DNA from: Victivallales bacterium
Lineage (GTDB): Bacteria > Verrucomicrobiota > Lentisphaeria > Oligosphaerales > Oligosphaeraceae
Length of the DNA stretch: 6,531 nt
Direction of reading: 5' to 3'
Assembly (NCBI GenBank): GCA_017964325.1
Contig: JAGCSE010000032.1
Location: 1 to 6,531 of the forward strand
Part shown: positions 1 to 6,400 of the stretch, piece after piece
Numbering within the stretch: the first letter of the stretch is position 1
Layout of the letters: every line of letters begins with the position of its first letter
Translations under genes and position numbers: made by a program
Notes under the pieces: model-generated
Seen by the model: only the letters and a program-made list of their open reading frames with translations
Databases searched by the model: none
What the model was told of the DNA's origin: nothing

Positions 1-927
1 TCGCACTCCCGTCGCCCTTTCCAAAAGGCGCGTTAATGTTTTTTCCATGTTTATGTCCAACTGCCGCGCACGGCATCGCGAAGCCGTCCCACACAACGTA
101 ACATTCTGCAATTCAGGCAACGCGACAAGCGATGCAACTTCGTTATCGCCCCAATCAATCTCCACGTAGGAAATCGGATATTCCTTCAGCAACTCCACAA
201 GTCTCTCTTGACGTTCCTCTGGCGACGTCTGGTCAGCAGGCTGTGGCTTCGACAGGCCAACCGAAACTTCATCGTTTTGCGCATAACCCGTTGTTTCAAT
301 GGCTTGCCGCACGCAATCCAATATCTCCCGTTCGTCTCCGTCAAATATTTTTAATCCATACTCACCATTTCCATTGCGAAGGCTTCGGGCAGTGACTTCA
401 TCCGCAAACGCATGGGCGATTTCCGCGCAGCCGCGCAACCGTTCGCGGAAACGCACGCTTGAACGCCTCCATACCAGCAGGATTTCATTGAAAAGACCGC
501 CATTTTCCAATCGGCACAACGTCACGATCGGATTTGGCAAACGCTTGGCGTTCACGCCTCCAAGATACCGACACAACGGCAGTTCCACCGCCAAAGCCGC
601 CGCTTGCGCGACCGCCAGTGAAACCGCCAGGCTCGAATTCCCACCAATGCTCTCAAGATTCTCCAACGTGCGATCGACTCCTGCCTGATTCAACGCGTCC
701 ATGCCGCGCAACTGCGTGGCGACCAGATCCCGCACATTGGACAGCGCCATGCCGACGCCCTTCCCCCAGTAGCGCTTCGGATCGTCGTCCCGCTTGTCGT
801 TCGGAACATCGGCAACCGCCACGGCCCGCCCCAATGCTCCGCATTCCAGCATGACGTCGCATTCCAGCGTCGCATTACCTTGAGAATCAAGAAGTTCCCG
901 ACTATCTATGTTTTGTATCAACGTCAT
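1..927 (-). CDS. Enolase-like protein, probably non-catalytic (partial, runs off left edge)
   Basis: An unbroken frame of 309 codons begins at the ATG at 927-925 and is still open at base 1. An in-frame TGA lies eight codons upstream of this ATG, which is the first possible ATG; the ribosome site is weak (GGAA about 5 bases before it). Homology to enolase (2-phosphoglycerate dehydratase, glycolysis) is visible throughout: DSRELLDSQGNATLE near residues 8-22, RYWGKGV near 52-58, NSSLAVSLAVAQAAA near 97-111, RYLGGVNAK near 120-128, NPIV near 132, and KEYPISYVE near 248-256. Family-critical features are missing. The Ser-containing PSGASTG loop is replaced by a short Asp/Lys-rich stretch around 39-51. 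The GGEHADNN segment is deleted after residues 143-144. By my alignment the metal-binding Asp of the MDCA segment becomes Ser226 and that of VGDDL becomes Thr281. Glu148, Glu189 and Glu256 seem to be kept. The position of the catalytic Lys342 lies just off the window. It is last in the visible etfBA-oleA operon. Homology is secure; loss of enolase activity is inference; its new role is unknown. Confidence 0.8.
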   Translation of the reverse strand, partial: MTLIQNIDSRELLDSQGNATLECDVMLECGALGRAVAVADVPNDKRDDDPKRYWGKGVGMALSNVRDLVATQLRGMDALNQAGVDRTLENLESIGGNSSLAVSLAVAQAAALAVELPLCRYLGGVNAKRLPNPIVTLCRLENGGLFNEILLVWRRSSVRFRERLRGCAEIAHAFADEVTARSLRNGNGEYGLKIFDGDEREILDCVRQAIETTGYAQNDEVSVGLSKPQPADQTSPEERQERLVELLKEYPISYVEIDWGDNEVASLVALPELQNVTLCGTASRCRARQLDINMEKTLTRLLERATGVR

Positions 928-990: not shown

Positions 991-1015
991 GTTGTAAGTT
1001 ATTAATTGTTAATTC
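991..1015. repeat. Short copy of the AATTGTT repeat module at the 3' end of oleA
   Basis: The segment starts GTTGTAAGTT and continues into ATTAATTGTTAATTC, so it holds one full AATTGTT unit (1004-1010) and a partial AATTC unit that overlaps the oleA TGA (1014-1016 on the minus strand). The array after etfA has the same order: GTTGTAA, then AATTGTT units, ending AATTC inside the gene end. The match in sequence, orientation and position relative to a stop codon suggests one dispersed repeat family inserted at gene ends. Confidence 0.6.
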
Positions 1016-2048
1016 ACCATTCCACGCCTATTCCGCAGCAGTTAATACCGCTGCCAATACCAAGCAATGCGACCGTCTGGCCGACTGCCAAACGACCAAC
1101 CTCCTCCGCCAACCCCAACGTCGCTGGAAGCGACGCGGAGCCACAATTGCCAAGTCGCTCAAATGTCGAATAATCCAACTCCAATGGCAATTTGAGGCTT
1201 TCATAAAGCCGTTGTCTGTGCATCTTTCCGACTTGATGCGTCACGACCAATCCAGGCAGTCTCCCACTTTGCCAGCCGCACGCACCGCTCAGTTCCGACC
1301 ACATTTTCTCCGCCACTGCGACTCCGCGAACCAGCAGTTCTTCGGAATCCGTCTCCATCAACGGCTTGCTGCCATCCGTCATGCCGCCTTCCACCGCCCC
1401 CTGGCAGAGGCGGTTCTGCGACGTATCCGCACACCACGCGGCATGTGTCAACCGATGCCCCCTTCGTCCGATGACAACGCCCGCCGCGCAGGATCCAATC
1501 GTCAACGACGCAAAATGCCCCTTCATAGCCTTTCGATCAATCGTCGTGTCTTCGCACAGCGTCCGCACGGTGTTCTCCACCAGTGGCCCGCCGTTTTCAC
1601 CACAGACAGCCAGACCATATTCAATCTGCCCCATCTCCACGAGATTTGCCAACATCATGATGCCATTAACCATTCCTAGACAGGCATTTGAGATGTCAAA
1701 CGCCAATGCCGAAGATGGCAGTTCCAACAGATGGTGGACGAACGCCGCCGTAGCAGGCTCAACGCAATCTCTTGAAACAGAGCAATTTATCAAACAACCG
1801 ATTTCCGACGAAGCGACGCCTGCCTTTTCCAACGCCTTTCGTCCTGCCGCCGCAGCCGCCTGACTGGGCAGGGTCCCTTTGTCCCAAAAACGCCGTTCGC
1901 GGATTCCCGTCATCAGCTCCAACCGTCCGACACGCAGATGCAGCCGTTCATACAACGGCAGCAGACGCGTTTCAAGCTCCTCCGAACTGACAACGTTCGG
2001 AGGAAGCTCTACGCCGACGGATGTGATGCAAGCCTGACGATATTGCAT
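1014..2048 (-). CDS. oleA: OleA-like head-to-head acyl-CoA condensing enzyme (thiolase superfamily, KAS III-like)
   Basis: This 344-residue cytoplasmic protein resembles OleA, which condenses two fatty acyl-CoAs by a non-decarboxylative Claisen reaction to a beta-keto acid, the first step to long-chain olefins or ketones. Compared from memory with Xanthomonas OleA, shared blocks are GIRERRFWD (48-56), INCSVSRDCVEPATAA (87-102), FDISNACLGMVNG (117-129), THQVGKMH (270-277), RLGNCGSASLP (298-308) and ALLGIGSGINC (327-337). The catalytic set is complete: Cys123 (acylated nucleophile), Glu97 in the EPAT motif (the OleA-specific base, Glu117 in Xanthomonas), His271 and Asn301. Glu97 in this context favours OleA over FabH. 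Length matches the family (about 340). The start has a weak GAG site 4 bases upstream. It lies 118 bases after etfA, across a repeat-filled spacer. No oleB, oleC or oleD is visible, so the end product is uncertain. Confidence 0.85.
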   Translation of the reverse strand: MQYRQACITSVGVELPPNVVSSEELETRLLPLYERLHLRVGRLELMTGIRERRFWDKGTLPSQAAAAAGRKALEKAGVASSEIGCLINCSVSRDCVEPATAAFVHHLLELPSSALAFDISNACLGMVNGIMMLANLVEMGQIEYGLAVCGENGGPLVENTVRTLCEDTTIDRKAMKGHFASLTIGSCAAGVVIGRRGHRLTHAAWCADTSQNRLCQGAVEGGMTDGSKPLMETDSEELLVRGVAVAEKMWSELSGACGWQSGRLPGLVVTHQVGKMHRQRLYESLKLPLELDYSTFERLGNCGSASLPATLGLAEEVGRLAVGQTVALLGIGSGINCCGIGVEW

Positions 2049-2137: not shown

Positions 2138-2187
2138 GTTAATTGTTAATTCTTAATTGTTAATTCTTAATTCTTAATTGTTAATTC
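2127..2187. repeat. Heptanucleotide tandem array, unit AATTSTT, overlapping the etfA stop codon
   Basis: Eight full 7-base units run from 2127 to 2182, followed by a partial AATTC. The fifth base alternates between G and C (order G, G, G, C, G, C, C, G, then C); the other six bases are invariant. The last three units lie inside etfA, encoding its final residues (LTIKN) and stop. Read on the minus strand each unit contains TAA. Because 7 is not a multiple of 3, three units put a stop in all three frames. Heptamer short tandem repeats (STRR) are known from heterocystous cyanobacteria; I do not claim this is the same family. Confidence 0.85.
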
Positions 2188-3168
2188 CTTCTTCAGTCTT
2201 TCGGTCAGCATTGGCAGAAGCGTGAACAAGTCACCGCAGAGGCCAAGCTCCGCATACTGGAAGATCGGAGCCTCGGAATCGCTGTTGATGGCGATGATTG
2301 TCTCGCTCGTCTGCATGCCCGCCAGATGCTGTACGGCTCCCGAAATGCCGACTGCTATGTAAAGCTTTGGCGAAACGGTCTTTCCAGAAAGACCAATCTG
2401 TGCGGAATACGGCCTCCAGCCGCGATCCACCGCTTCACGGCTCGCGCCGACGGCGCCACCGAGTACATCCGCAAGCTGTTCGGCGAGAACGACATTCTCG
2501 CCTTTCTTGAAGCCGCGGCCAACGGACACCACGATGTCCGCGTCCTGTATCGCCATCGTCTGTTCGGCGGCTTCGTAACCGACGCGTTTTACGTGGCTTG
2601 CAAGCAGTTTTTCTTCTGGTTTCCAACGGACGATTTCGCCCTTCCGCCCTGCCTGCACAGGAGCGGGACGCTCCGAATGCGGCCTTACGGTCGCCATCTG
2701 CGGCCGCCTGTCCGGCGTCTTGATGGTCGCCATGATGTTGCCGCCTGCAGCAGGACGCGTCTGCAGCAGCAGCCCCGTGCCGTCTTCGATATCCAGATTC
2801 GTGCAGTCCGCCGTCAGCCCCGCCCGCAGACGTGCGGCCGTACATGGCATGACCGTCCGCCCCGTCGTCGTCGCGGCGGCCAGCATGATGTCCGGCTGTT
2901 CGCGTTTGATTAGATCGCATAGACAGGCCGTGTATGGTTCTGGCAGGAACGTCGCCAACTGTGGTGCCTCAGCGCAGATGACGCGGTCCGCCTCGCGTTC
3001 GATCAGCTTGTTGCATTCATCGTCTGAAACGGATTCGCCGAAAAGGACGGCGACCAGTTTCACGCCAAGCTTCTTGGCTAGTTTGATGCCACGTGTCAGC
3101 AATTCAAAACTCACGTCCAGGACTTTTCCATCCCGCTGCTCGGCAAGTATCCAAACGTCTTTGCTCAT
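2167..3168 (-). CDS. etfA: Electron transfer flavoprotein alpha subunit
   Basis: EtfA pairs with EtfB to form a soluble heterodimer that carries electrons on FAD between acyl-CoA dehydrogenase-type enzymes and other redox partners. The protein has 333 residues, the usual length. The N-terminal nucleotide-binding-like domain spans about 1-195, and the C-terminal FAD domain about 205-325. FAD-contact segments are visible: GRGF (217-220), SREAVDRGW (243-251), [11 protein letters not shown] (257-267) and GISGAVQH (274-281). The region 269-295 fits the published EtfA signature in full (LY-I-A-x-G-I-S-G-x-V-Q-H through to AIN). No N-terminal ferredoxin domain is present. GGAG with an 8-base spacer supports the start at 3168, 18 bases after the etfB stop. 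The last five residues and stop lie in an AT-rich heptamer repeat, so the C-terminus was probably remodelled by that repeat. Confidence 0.95.
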
Positions 3169-3186: not shown

Positions 3187-3987
3187 TCAGATGATTTTCT
3201 TGCTCTTCAAGAGTTCAACGACGCGTTCGACCGCTTTTTCGGCGCCTTCCGCATCCTGCGCGGGCAGTTTTTCGCAATCTTTGATGTGGATGGGACGGAA
3301 GATTTTCACGACACGCGTCGGCGACGCGTTCAAACCGACGTCCTCCTTCGACGCGCCGACGTCCTCCGCCGTCAATGTCTCAATCTCCATGCCGCGTGCA
3401 CGACGTTTGCCCTGCAACGTCGGAAGTCGCGGTATCGACGCTTCTTTCAGCACGCACAGCAGCGCTGGCCCATCGATTTCGACCGTCTCATAGCCTTCTT
3501 CGAGCATTCGGCGGACTCGCCAGCCATTGCCGCAGCGTTCCACGGCACTGACGAACGTGACGGCGGGCAGTTCCAAAAACGTCGCCATCGCAGGCCCTGT
3601 CTGCCCTGTTTCGCCGTCTGTGGCGCGTTCGCCGCAAATAATCAGGTCAAACGGCCCTATCTTCTTGGCGGCCAACGCTAAAGCATATCCTGTGCACCAT
3701 GTGTCTGAACCAGCGAATTCGCGCCCCGAAAGCAACACGCCGCGATCCGCGCCCATGCTCAGCGATTCGCGCAGCACGGCCGTTGCGGCGGCCGGCCCCA
3801 TACTCAGGCAGGTCACTTCCACATCTTCGCCCATCGTCTCTTTCAGCGTCAGTGCGCATTCCAAAGCATGCAAATCCAATGGATTGATGACGGAACTCGC
3901 CGCTTCGCGAATCAACGTTCCTGTCTTTTCGTCCATTCGAGTCGCCTGACTTTCGGGCACCTGCTTGGTCAGCACCAATATTTTCAT
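3187..3987 (-). CDS. etfB: Electron transfer flavoprotein beta subunit
   Basis: EtfB is the partner of EtfA and binds a nucleotide: AMP in housekeeping ETFs, a second FAD in bifurcating ETFs. From the chosen start it has 266 residues. It opens with MKILVLTKQVPES, the typical first strand, followed by INPLDLHALECALTLKE (34-50), GADRGVLLS (79-87) and CGERATDGETGQTGP (118-132). Residues 158-178 fit the published EtfB signature fully, from VRRMLEEGYETV through PALLC. The DGETGQTGP stretch is closer to the DGDTAQVGP form I recall from clostridial-type, bifurcation-capable EtfB than to the DDDCNQTGQ of mitochondrial EtfB. This hints at the former, but is not proof. An ATG four codons upstream (3999) has no ribosome site, whereas GAGGA (3997-3993) sits 5 bases before 3987. 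It is the first gene of the leftward operon. Confidence 0.95.
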   Translation of the reverse strand: MKILVLTKQVPESQATRMDEKTGTLIREAASSVINPLDLHALECALTLKETMGEDVEVTCLSMGPAAATAVLRESLSMGADRGVLLSGREFAGSDTWCTGYALALAAKKIGPFDLIICGERATDGETGQTGPAMATFLELPAVTFVSAVERCGNGWRVRRMLEEGYETVEIDGPALLCVLKEASIPRLPTLQGKRRARGMEIETLTAEDVGASKEDVGLNASPTRVVKIFRPIHIKDCEKLPAQDAEGAEKAVERVVELLKSKKII

Positions 3988-3992
3988 CCGTT

Positions 3993-3997
3993 TCCTC
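3993..3997 (-). promoter_or_regulatory. Ribosome binding site deciding the etfB start
   Basis: Read on the minus strand this is GAGGA, 5 bases from the ATG at 3987. It overlaps the alternative ATG at 3999, which itself is preceded only by A/T-rich sequence with no purine ribosome site. The shorter start is therefore preferred. Confidence 0.75.
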
Positions 3998-4124
3998 ATC
4001 GTCTTTTACGTTTTAGTAAAAAAAAGTCAAAATTAAAAACTAATCTGTTTAATTGAAATCGCAAATTTCCGCAGAAGATTTATCTTAAAAATATGTGAGC
4101 AATCTGACTTGCCGGCAAATCGTC

Positions 4125-4933: not shown

Positions 4934-6400
4934 ATGCGTAAGATATTGTCAGTTCTTGCATTATTCTGTGTCATCCTGTGTGCGGAACCGATGGACATCA
5001 CCATCAACGGCATCCCCTTGAAAGATTTTGTCATCGTCGCACCCGCTGAAGGAGCAGTCGCCAAGACGGCCAAGTCCTTCGCTGACAGGCTGAAACAAAA
5101 AACGGAAATCGTTCTGCCAATCGCTACGGCAGACGCACAACCAACTGCACACGAATTCGTTTTCGGCGTTCCATCCCATGATTCAGCCGCTCCGCAGTTC
5201 GCATACGACGACATCGCCATCTATTGGAAGGAAGGCCGCCTTCATTTCGCGGGCGACAGCCGCTTTTCAATCGCCACCGCCGCCAACTGGTTCCTCAACG
5301 AAAAGCTTCCCCAACTGAATGAAAAGCCGTTGCAAATCGCCGAAAACGAACGGATTTTCTCATCCTCGGCTCCCGCCCGAGATGTCTATCTCGCTGATCC
5401 GACGAAACTTCCTGTCCATTGGCAATTCACTTGGAAGCCAGAGGACGCCATGCTCCAATGGCAGACGAAAATCGACTCGCTGTATCTCAAGAATCCCAAA
5501 CGACCGCTCGCCATCGCCCATCGCGGCGATGCGCGCAACTATCCTGAAAACAGTCTTGAAGGTGTCATCAGCGCATGGCGGATGGGCATGACAGGCGTGG
5601 AAATCGACGTACGCTTCACAAAGGACGGTATCGCAATCCTCCAGCATGACGAAACGCTCGTCCGAATGACCGATTTCAACGACCTGAAAGGAAAAGACGG
5701 CCTCCCCGAATCCGCCAAAGTGGAGGACTGGACGCTTGAACAGCTCCGCAAGCTCCATCTGCGCGAAGGCCGCGGCGGCGTGAAGGCCGCCCTCACGCCG
5801 TACGTCATCCCCACGCTGGAGGAAATCCTGACCGTCGCCAAAGAACGTTTGTTCATCATCTTGGACAAACATCCGAACTGGCGCTACGTCGATATCGACG
5901 GCATCCAGTCCAAGGCGAAACCGAATTACATTTTCCCAATTATGCAGAAGACAGGCAATTACACCTCCTGCCTCATCTCCTTCGGCCATCTTGGAAACGC
6001 TCCAGAAAAGCTTTTCACCGCCGAACAGGCCCTGCAGGTACAAAAGTACATTTTCGAGAAATCCGGCCAGAAGCCGTTTTTCCTGCTGCGCGGCTGGACG
6101 AACAAAGGCCAGATGGCCCGAAAATATACGGAAAAGCTTCGTGAATCGACGCTTACCAACACAGGCATCATCATCAACGGCTCCTATTACAGCGAACGCG
6201 CCTTCGCCATGTCCGAAACAAAAAAGCTGACCGCCGATTTTCCGGACGTCCTTTTCCTTTCATGGACCGTCAACAAGCATCCCAACGACAATCCCGCCGG
6301 CTGGCAGCGCATCTCCGACGACGGCATCCGAGGCTTCATCACGCACAATACACTCGGTCTGCTCCGTTTCATCGTCAACGATTTGAAAACCGCCGAGTAA
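4934..6400 (+). CDS. Secreted glycerophosphodiester phosphodiesterase-family protein with extra N-terminal domain
   Basis: GDPD enzymes hydrolyse glycerophosphodiesters, from phospholipid head groups or teichoic-type polymers, to glycerol-3-phosphate and an alcohol. The 488-residue protein starts with a signal peptide (MRKILSVLALFCVILCA, cleavage probably near 17-18; no lipobox), so it acts outside the cytoplasm. Residues 20-135 form an extra domain beginning ITINGIPLKDFVIV. It resembles the N-terminal domains of some secreted glycoside hydrolases, a weak recognition. The GDPD barrel covers about 190-485: AHRGDARNYPENS (195-207, with His196, Arg197, Glu205 and Asn206), GVEIDVRFTKDG (221-232, metal ligands Glu223 and Asp225), LQHDETLVRMTD (236-247, His238), PTLEEIL (293-299), LSWTVN (442-447) and GIRGFITHN (464-472). 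The usual Glu-x-Lys strand reads LDK (310-312), an unusual change. AGGAG 5 bases upstream supports the start. Substrate is unknown. Confidence 0.87.
   Translation: MRKILSVLALFCVILCAEPMDITINGIPLKDFVIVAPAEGAVAKTAKSFADRLKQKTEIVLPIATADAQPTAHEFVFGVPSHDSAAPQFAYDDIAIYWKEGRLHFAGDSRFSIATAANWFLNEKLPQLNEKPLQIAENERIFSSSAPARDVYLADPTKLPVHWQFTWKPEDAMLQWQTKIDSLYLKNPKRPLAIAHRGDARNYPENSLEGVISAWRMGMTGVEIDVRFTKDGIAILQHDETLVRMTDFNDLKGKDGLPESAKVEDWTLEQLRKLHLREGRGGVKAALTPYVIPTLEEILTVAKERLFIILDKHPNWRYVDIDGIQSKAKPNYIFPIMQKTGNYTSCLISFGHLGNAPEKLFTAEQALQVQKYIFEKSGQKPFFLLRGWTNKGQMARKYTEKLRESTLTNTGIIINGSYYSERAFAMSETKKLTADFPDVLFLSWTVNKHPNDNPAGWQRISDDGIRGFITHNTLGLLRFIVNDLKTAE

Follow-up and report, generated by a model that had tools for sequence, protein, structure and literature searches.

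Enolase loss from host-associated bacteria has already been published. The cited portions of the respective papers describe it for rumen Butyrivibrio and Prevotella (PMC6118326), for Pseudobutyrivibrio (PMC7523725), and for Endomicrobia and other symbionts (PMC11257099, PMC12483993), with truncated enolases in some rumen Butyrivibrio (PMC6912079). Loss from some host-associated bacteria was termed 'rather perplexing' (PMC11257099). In Thermococci and Methanococci, fast-evolving archaeal enolase paralogues are found in place, and the part of the paper cited here considers an ancillary, not a glycolytic, role most likely for them (PMC4390880). No report of a dead enolase in Lentisphaerota was recognised among the papers listed from the open literature, judged mainly by titles and the beginnings of abstracts. 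New in the present case is that the sole enolase found is intact, selected and apparently dead; three further class genomes have similar degenerate enolases.

As far as the cited texts go, the gene described here resembles the archaeal paralogues in its retained ancestral gene context and its fast evolution. It differs from them in that the archaeal genomes have a second enolase (PMC4390880), whereas none was found in the genomes carrying the degenerate form. With rumen Butyrivibrio it shares the gut habitat and the loss of canonical enolase, with glycolysis otherwise retained. There, deletions or truncations are described and a methylglyoxal shunt is proposed, whereas here a long, selected protein is present (PMC6118326, PMC6912079). 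Our favored reading, to which we assign a probability of about 0.6, is that the protein is an in-place descendant of the lineage's glycolytic enolase, kept as a dimeric protein-protein scaffold that outlived the reaction.

The stretch of DNA analysed (the window) comprises the 6,531 nucleotides of positions 1 to 6,531 of contig JAGCSE010000032.1, from the Victivallales bacterium assembly GCA_017964325.1 (class Lentisphaeria, order Oligosphaerales, family Oligosphaeraceae). The enolase gene lies at its edge:

1..927, minus strand: degenerate enolase (pseudo-enolase), residues 1-309 of 367, recognised by frame, Pfam/PDB homology and predicted fold; the gene continues past the window edge.

The frame starts with ATG and has 309 open codons up to the edge. 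A full-length version (P0001, 367 aa) lies on a 28,775-base contig and matches the part encoded in the window at 100% identity. P0001 is intact, so there is no frame break just beyond base 1, the place where the initial annotation had asked for a check, and the intact frame that it reported was confirmed in both versions. Homology to enolase is certain (Enolase_N, 3.2e-26 on the window protein), and the PDB sequence matches were enolases, down to 7.2e-33. Compared with Eno (EC 4.2.1.11; TIGR01060), the protein has the fold, N-domain and C-terminal helix in common, as well as the genomic slot in three relatives (G012-G014); it is ~60 residues shorter, and its catalytic and metal residues are gone. 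The 309-residue part scored 133.3 bits with TIGR01060, below the cut-off of 300. With PRK08350 / NF006223, a 341-position enolase-like 'hypothetical protein' that is likewise a short enolase relative, the same part scored 55.5 bits over residues 1-142, far under the cut-off of 624.

Water-buffalo forestomach MAGs of Victivallales (genomes G001 and G002) gave close relatives on contigs L001 (79%) and L002 (76%), which suggests that the window is from this group as well. An alignment search scored 7,996 candidates and gave 1,443 matches. Among the 120 best proteins, P0001-P0007 were divergent and seem to form a narrow family. The other 113 were ordinary enolases as judged by length (415-501 aa), a drop in score and 31-35% identity, not by active-site residues.

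Twelve active-site positions, in yeast enolase numbering, were mapped by motif on the canonical enolase P0049 and checked in 12 divergent rows, several of them near-copies, and 14 canonical enolases. Residues of the window protein at or near such positions include:

484..486, minus strand: Glu148 at catalytic position E168, by residue alignment (kept in 9/12 divergent rows).
250..252, minus strand: Ser226 at metal-ligand position D246, by residue alignment.
160..162, minus strand: Glu256 at metal-ligand position E295, by residue alignment (kept in 9/12 divergent rows).
85..87, minus strand: Thr281, at or adjoining metal-ligand position D320 (the GDD aspartate), placed by eye on P0001; alignment A2 has gaps here.

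All 12 residues were present in every canonical row. D246, K345, H373, R374, S375 and K396 were kept in none of the divergent rows. S39, H159 and D320 had the right letter in one divergent row each and E211 in two, all in regions of uncertain alignment. The three rows without E168 and E295 were the most distant ones (G023, G003 and P0007), and G023 and G003 have Glu in the D246 column. Only E168 and E295 are left in the window protein. Thus, E295 alone remains of the three carboxylate metal ligands (D246, E295, D320), and the catalytic set of K345, E211, the S39 loop, H159, H373, R374, S375 and K396 is gone. The C-terminal part beyond the window, as present in P0001, also lacks H373, R374, S375 and K396. 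The loss of residues is observed; from it, the protein is apparently catalytically dead, an enzyme fold without catalytic residues.

Several details of the initial annotation can be judged by this comparison. The missing Ser loop and His segment were borne out. Ser226 was placed at D246 by the alignment, and Thr281 at the GDD aspartate by eye only, alignment A2 being gapped. Two of the three glutamates described as preserved correspond to kept positions (Glu148, Glu256), while Glu189 varies even among the closest relatives. In a second, separate alignment the E168 column of P0001 was Ile, which makes the assignment of Glu148 insecure.

An AlphaFold2 model built from a 26-row alignment had a pLDDT of 90.9 and a pTM of 0.89. 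The predicted fold is that of an enolase, with N-domain and beta/alpha barrel. The best 50 of 577 Foldseek matches (E up to 0.001) were all enolase chains, with TM-scores over the query up to 0.93, and about 0.9 to PDB enolases. The window covers the two parts as follows:

556..927, minus strand: residues 1-124, which form the N-terminal enolase domain and are under the strongest constraint (residue retention 64%; dN/dS 0.04-0.06).
1..555, minus strand: residues 125-309, which belong to the barrel and have lost the active site (residue alignment and retention; dN/dS 0.11-0.15).

Retention was measured at 134 positions that are invariant (95%) in 37 canonical enolases, as the mean over five divergent representatives. 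It was 0.64 in the N-domain (n=49), 0.28 in the barrel (n=57), 0.34 in the last barrel part (n=18), and 0.58 in the C-terminal helix (n=10). A total of 31 positions were kept in all five representatives, 18 of them in the N-domain, and 39 in none. Outside the N-domain, the 13 positions common to all five were, in P0049 numbering, G136, P143, P145, R180, E184, A225, P280, D372, A381, G390, N402, L404 and R406. E22 and R361, which correspond to the residues of a salt bridge in yeast enolase (E20-R414), were invariant in all 11 rows of alignment A1.

The S. aureus enolase dimer is formed via beta 1-3, alpha 5 and alpha 12, according to the cited portion of PMC4667285; the passages considered from PMC8996150 contribute nothing further on the dimer. 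By element order, R180 and E184 would lie on alpha 5, and N402, L404 and R406 on alpha 12. This assigns five of the 13 positions to these helices; the other eight were not tied to the interface. Conservation and helix assignment together suggest that much of the best-kept sequence falls on the dimer-building elements. The N-domain might also be kept for folding alone.

The same data bear on the proposal that the protein is an enolase-superfamily enzyme with new chemistry, one of the functions considered in the initial annotation. In its favor, E148 and E256 are retained in the near clade, whose modelled barrel is complete, and Glu stands in the D246 column of G003 and G023. However, 12/12 rows have lost D246 as well as the base K345; the combination of barrel metal ligands with a conserved general base, which marks the superfamily, is lacking. 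Moreover, the three most distant rows (335-356 aa), besides lacking E168 and E295, have lost barrel segments, and the family-wide invariant columns show no new common polar set and do not point to a new active site. Changed chemistry is therefore unlikely.

Selection was assessed by pairwise codon likelihood with our own script; distant pairs were saturated and left out. For G001-G002, dN/dS was 0.100 (367 codons; 2dlnL 198 against a dN/dS of 1). The window gave 0.098 against G001 (309 codons, 2dlnL 180) and 0.123 against G002 (309 codons, 2dlnL 148). G024-G025 gave 0.019 (365 codons, of which 22 differ, with 1 amino acid changed; 2dlnL 44). The values thus ranged from 0.02 to 0.12, and a dN/dS of 1 was rejected in all four pairs. 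Neighboring genes had values of 0.03-0.11 in unsaturated pairs; compared with them, the degenerate enolase evolved faster in the first group, whereas in G024-G025 it evolved more slowly than any other of the eight genes. By the Nei-Gojobori method, dN/dS was 0.041-0.057 for residues 1-124 and 0.113-0.152 for the barrel (from residue 125 to 345, or to 309 in comparisons with the window).

These values make it hardly credible that the gene is a decaying pseudogene caught before its frame broke, even though the absence of enolase from other genomes of the family suggests that the gene can be deleted, and truncated enolases are described for some rumen Butyrivibrio in the cited part of PMC6912079. 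Frames are also intact at 35-53% identity in G003, G023, G024 and G025. The gene is kept by selection, as expected of a pseudoenzyme. With the intact frame, the residue loss and the predicted fold, the dN/dS comparison across homologues proposed earlier therefore upheld the view of a selected enolase homologue without a catalytic site.

The genomic position of the gene was compared among relatives. Its neighbors in the window were:

1014..2048, minus strand: KAS III (NCBIfam PRK09258, 3-oxoacyl-ACP synthase III; 390.1 bits, cut-off 285), the conserved upstream neighbor.
2167..3168, minus strand: electron transfer flavoprotein (ETF) alpha subunit, a neighbor in closer relatives only (domain match and comparison of loci).
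3187..3999, minus strand: electron transfer flavoprotein beta subunit, a neighbor in closer relatives only (domain match and comparison of loci).

The order of the slot is KAS III, enolase, aconitase, kinase, of which the window holds KAS III and enolase at its edge. The slot is filled by a canonical enolase in G012, G013 and, across two contigs, G014, and by a degenerate one in G023, G003, G024, G025 and G002. G001 has enolase, aconitase and kinase on a short contig that starts too late to judge ETF. KAS III adjoins aconitase with no enolase between them in ten genomes; enolase was found elsewhere in three of these (G006, G011, G017) and not found elsewhere in seven (G004, G007, G015, G016, G018, G027, G028). 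No aconitase was seen in the KAS III stretch examined in G008 and G019-G022. In G005, enolase and aconitase are adjacent on opposite strands. Outside the family, enolase adjoins aconitase in 7/17 loci, examined with flanks of up to ~1.5 kb each, so the pair looks old. Enolase remnants were searched for in the KAS III neighborhood of 13 of the 16 enolase-less family genomes, and none was convincing (best E 0.039); no such neighborhood was available for G009 and G029, and in G026 the scan covered a stretch whose KAS III is distant.

Among the loci examined, only those of the window, G002, G024 and G025 have the ETF genes alongside, and the 19.9-kb stretches inspected in G003, G023 and G012 showed none. 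The link to ETF made in the initial annotation holds for these four; the neighbors that persist are KAS III and aconitase. Because these two are found with the canonical enolase of G012 and G013 as well, they are weaker evidence of a partner. Two further genes lie divergently after the cluster in the window, and the same pair is found beside the cluster in L002:

4148-4918, plus strand: SpoU-type RNA 2'-O-methyltransferase (155.3 bits with TIGR00186, whose cut-off is 160.15).
4934-6400, plus strand: GDPD-domain protein.

Across the 29 genomes of the family, canonical enolase was found in seven (G005, G006, G011, G012, G013, G014, G017) and only the degenerate form in six (G001, G002, G003, G023, G024, G025; the carriers). 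The PF00113 and A1 searches found no enolase in the other 16. Two of these, G008 and G020, had PF00113 matches without an A1 match; their frames looked MR/MLE-type by eye, and both were counted as enolase-less. The same profile searches found no second enolase in any carrier, and a search of G001 and G002 with canonical P0049 gave the divergent gene and no other. The other 18 genomes of the order all had an enolase match, one of them partial. Searches for iPGM and PGK across the family served as controls for incompleteness. iPGM was found in 24/29 genomes (6/6 carriers, 13/16 enolase-less) and PGK in 26/29 (5/6 carriers, 14/16 enolase-less).

It is improbable that a canonical enolase was missed in incomplete assemblies and that the degenerate form is a dispensable diverged paralogue. 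G002 lacks a PGK match, and a single contig in the class (G083) carries canonical-by-score, degenerate and fragment enolases together, as this explanation would allow. Against it, no carrier had a canonical match, yet iPGM and PGK were recovered in nearly all of them, and the degenerate gene occupies the canonical slot of relatives. The earlier description of the gene as a paralogue is probably wrong for these reasons, as judged from relatives rather than from the window's own genome, and no second canonical eno was found in any of the six carriers.

A still-working enolase with a rebuilt active site would account for the only enolase-like gene in six genomes that keep iPGM. Such a protein would have to work with two of the 12 checked residues, and the 16 family genomes in which no enolase was found, 13 of them with iPGM, suggest that absence of the enzyme is tolerated, so that this explanation is very improbable.

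Under the favored reading, the lineage's own glycolytic enolase would have given rise to the degenerate form in the same slot. Its catalytic residues are lost, while purifying selection has preserved the fold, above all the N-terminal domain. We infer that selection maintains a protein-protein function exerted by the dimer, an ancillary one that the ancestral enzyme already had. By precedent, an RNA-degradation complex or neighboring enzymes would be candidate partners. The supposed role must be dispensable in the 16 family genomes in which no enolase was found. If the reading is true, the carriers are a natural experiment that parts a moonlighting role of enolase from its catalysis, and a selected, apparently dead enolase with no second copy found makes it testable which non-catalytic role is worth keeping alone.

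Glycolysis in the carriers would have to get past the enolase step by another route. If so, there is an unrecognised bypass of 2-phosphoglycerate to PEP in bacteria that keep PGK and iPGM, marking a bacterial family whose glycolysis must be completed otherwise. Methylglyoxal synthase had no match in any of the 47 genomes of the order, while the model matched in 7/14 control genomes; the shunt proposed for Butyrivibrio is therefore not supported here. The Fe-S serine dehydratase PF03313 was above the cut-off in 7/47 order genomes, including 3/16 enolase-less family genomes and 0/6 carriers. Pyruvate kinase (PF00224) matched in 4/47 order genomes (none in 43) and in 1/29 of the family. PPDK_N was found in 24/29 family genomes and 5/6 carriers (in G001 via a fragment). 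Given the scarcity of pyruvate kinase, pyruvate may be made by PPDK.

In the phylogeny, a branch with support of 97/100 separated the divergent and in-slot canonical enolases from 24 other canonical rows, in a tree that came with a long-branch warning. A second tree, of 133 canonical enolases, united those of the slot with those of G005 and G011 in a clade (SH-aLRT 97) within the enolases of the order (96). The canonical enolases of G006 (C161) and G017 (C31) were placed far from these and may, from their position in the tree, be transferred genes or binning contamination. G023 had a very long branch and stood apart; PGK and KAS III trees also separated it from the other carriers, so that one or two origins of the degenerate form are possible.

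At the class level, an A1 match was found in 124/197 genomes and none in 73, a count in which incomplete drafts are not controlled for. Enolase loss in the class may be wide. A Pfam match alone would label the carriers enolase-positive. Ten loci from nine class genomes were examined, and three of them encoded enolases without K345, H373, R374, S375 and K396 (residue alignment):

L157:3510-4289: degenerate enolase of G147 (255 aa).
L158:1770-2918: degenerate enolase of G162 (383-aa frame).
L159:383-1630: degenerate enolase of G163 (416-aa frame).

No other enolase was counted in these genomes (in G162, 10 of 16 candidates were scored). G163 retains Asp at D246, and G162 retains Glu at E295. In the 255-aa form, the N-domain and C-terminal helix are kept and the barrel is much reduced. 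Its model had a pLDDT of 93.9, and the 50 matches listed were enolase chains, with TM-scores over the query up to 0.89. These forms suggest, tentatively and at somewhat less than even odds, that the glycolytic enolase was repeatedly turned into a dead dimeric scaffold in gut Lentisphaeria, in cells without another enolase.

G138, G189 and G092 were canonical at all 12 positions, and a 42-aa match in G131 ends at a contig edge and is uninformative. Two further genomes had additional enolase genes:

L161:1954-2394 and L162:1074-2441: degenerate enolase and C-terminal fragment of G083.
L163:1326-2678: extra enolase-like protein of G039 (451-aa frame).

G083 is one 3.66-Mb contig; its degenerate enolase (456-aa frame) and the fragment accompany the enolase that is canonical by score. 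In G039, the extra protein occurs beside a canonical enolase. It keeps D246, E295, D320 and K345 but not H373-S375, and perhaps has a different activity.
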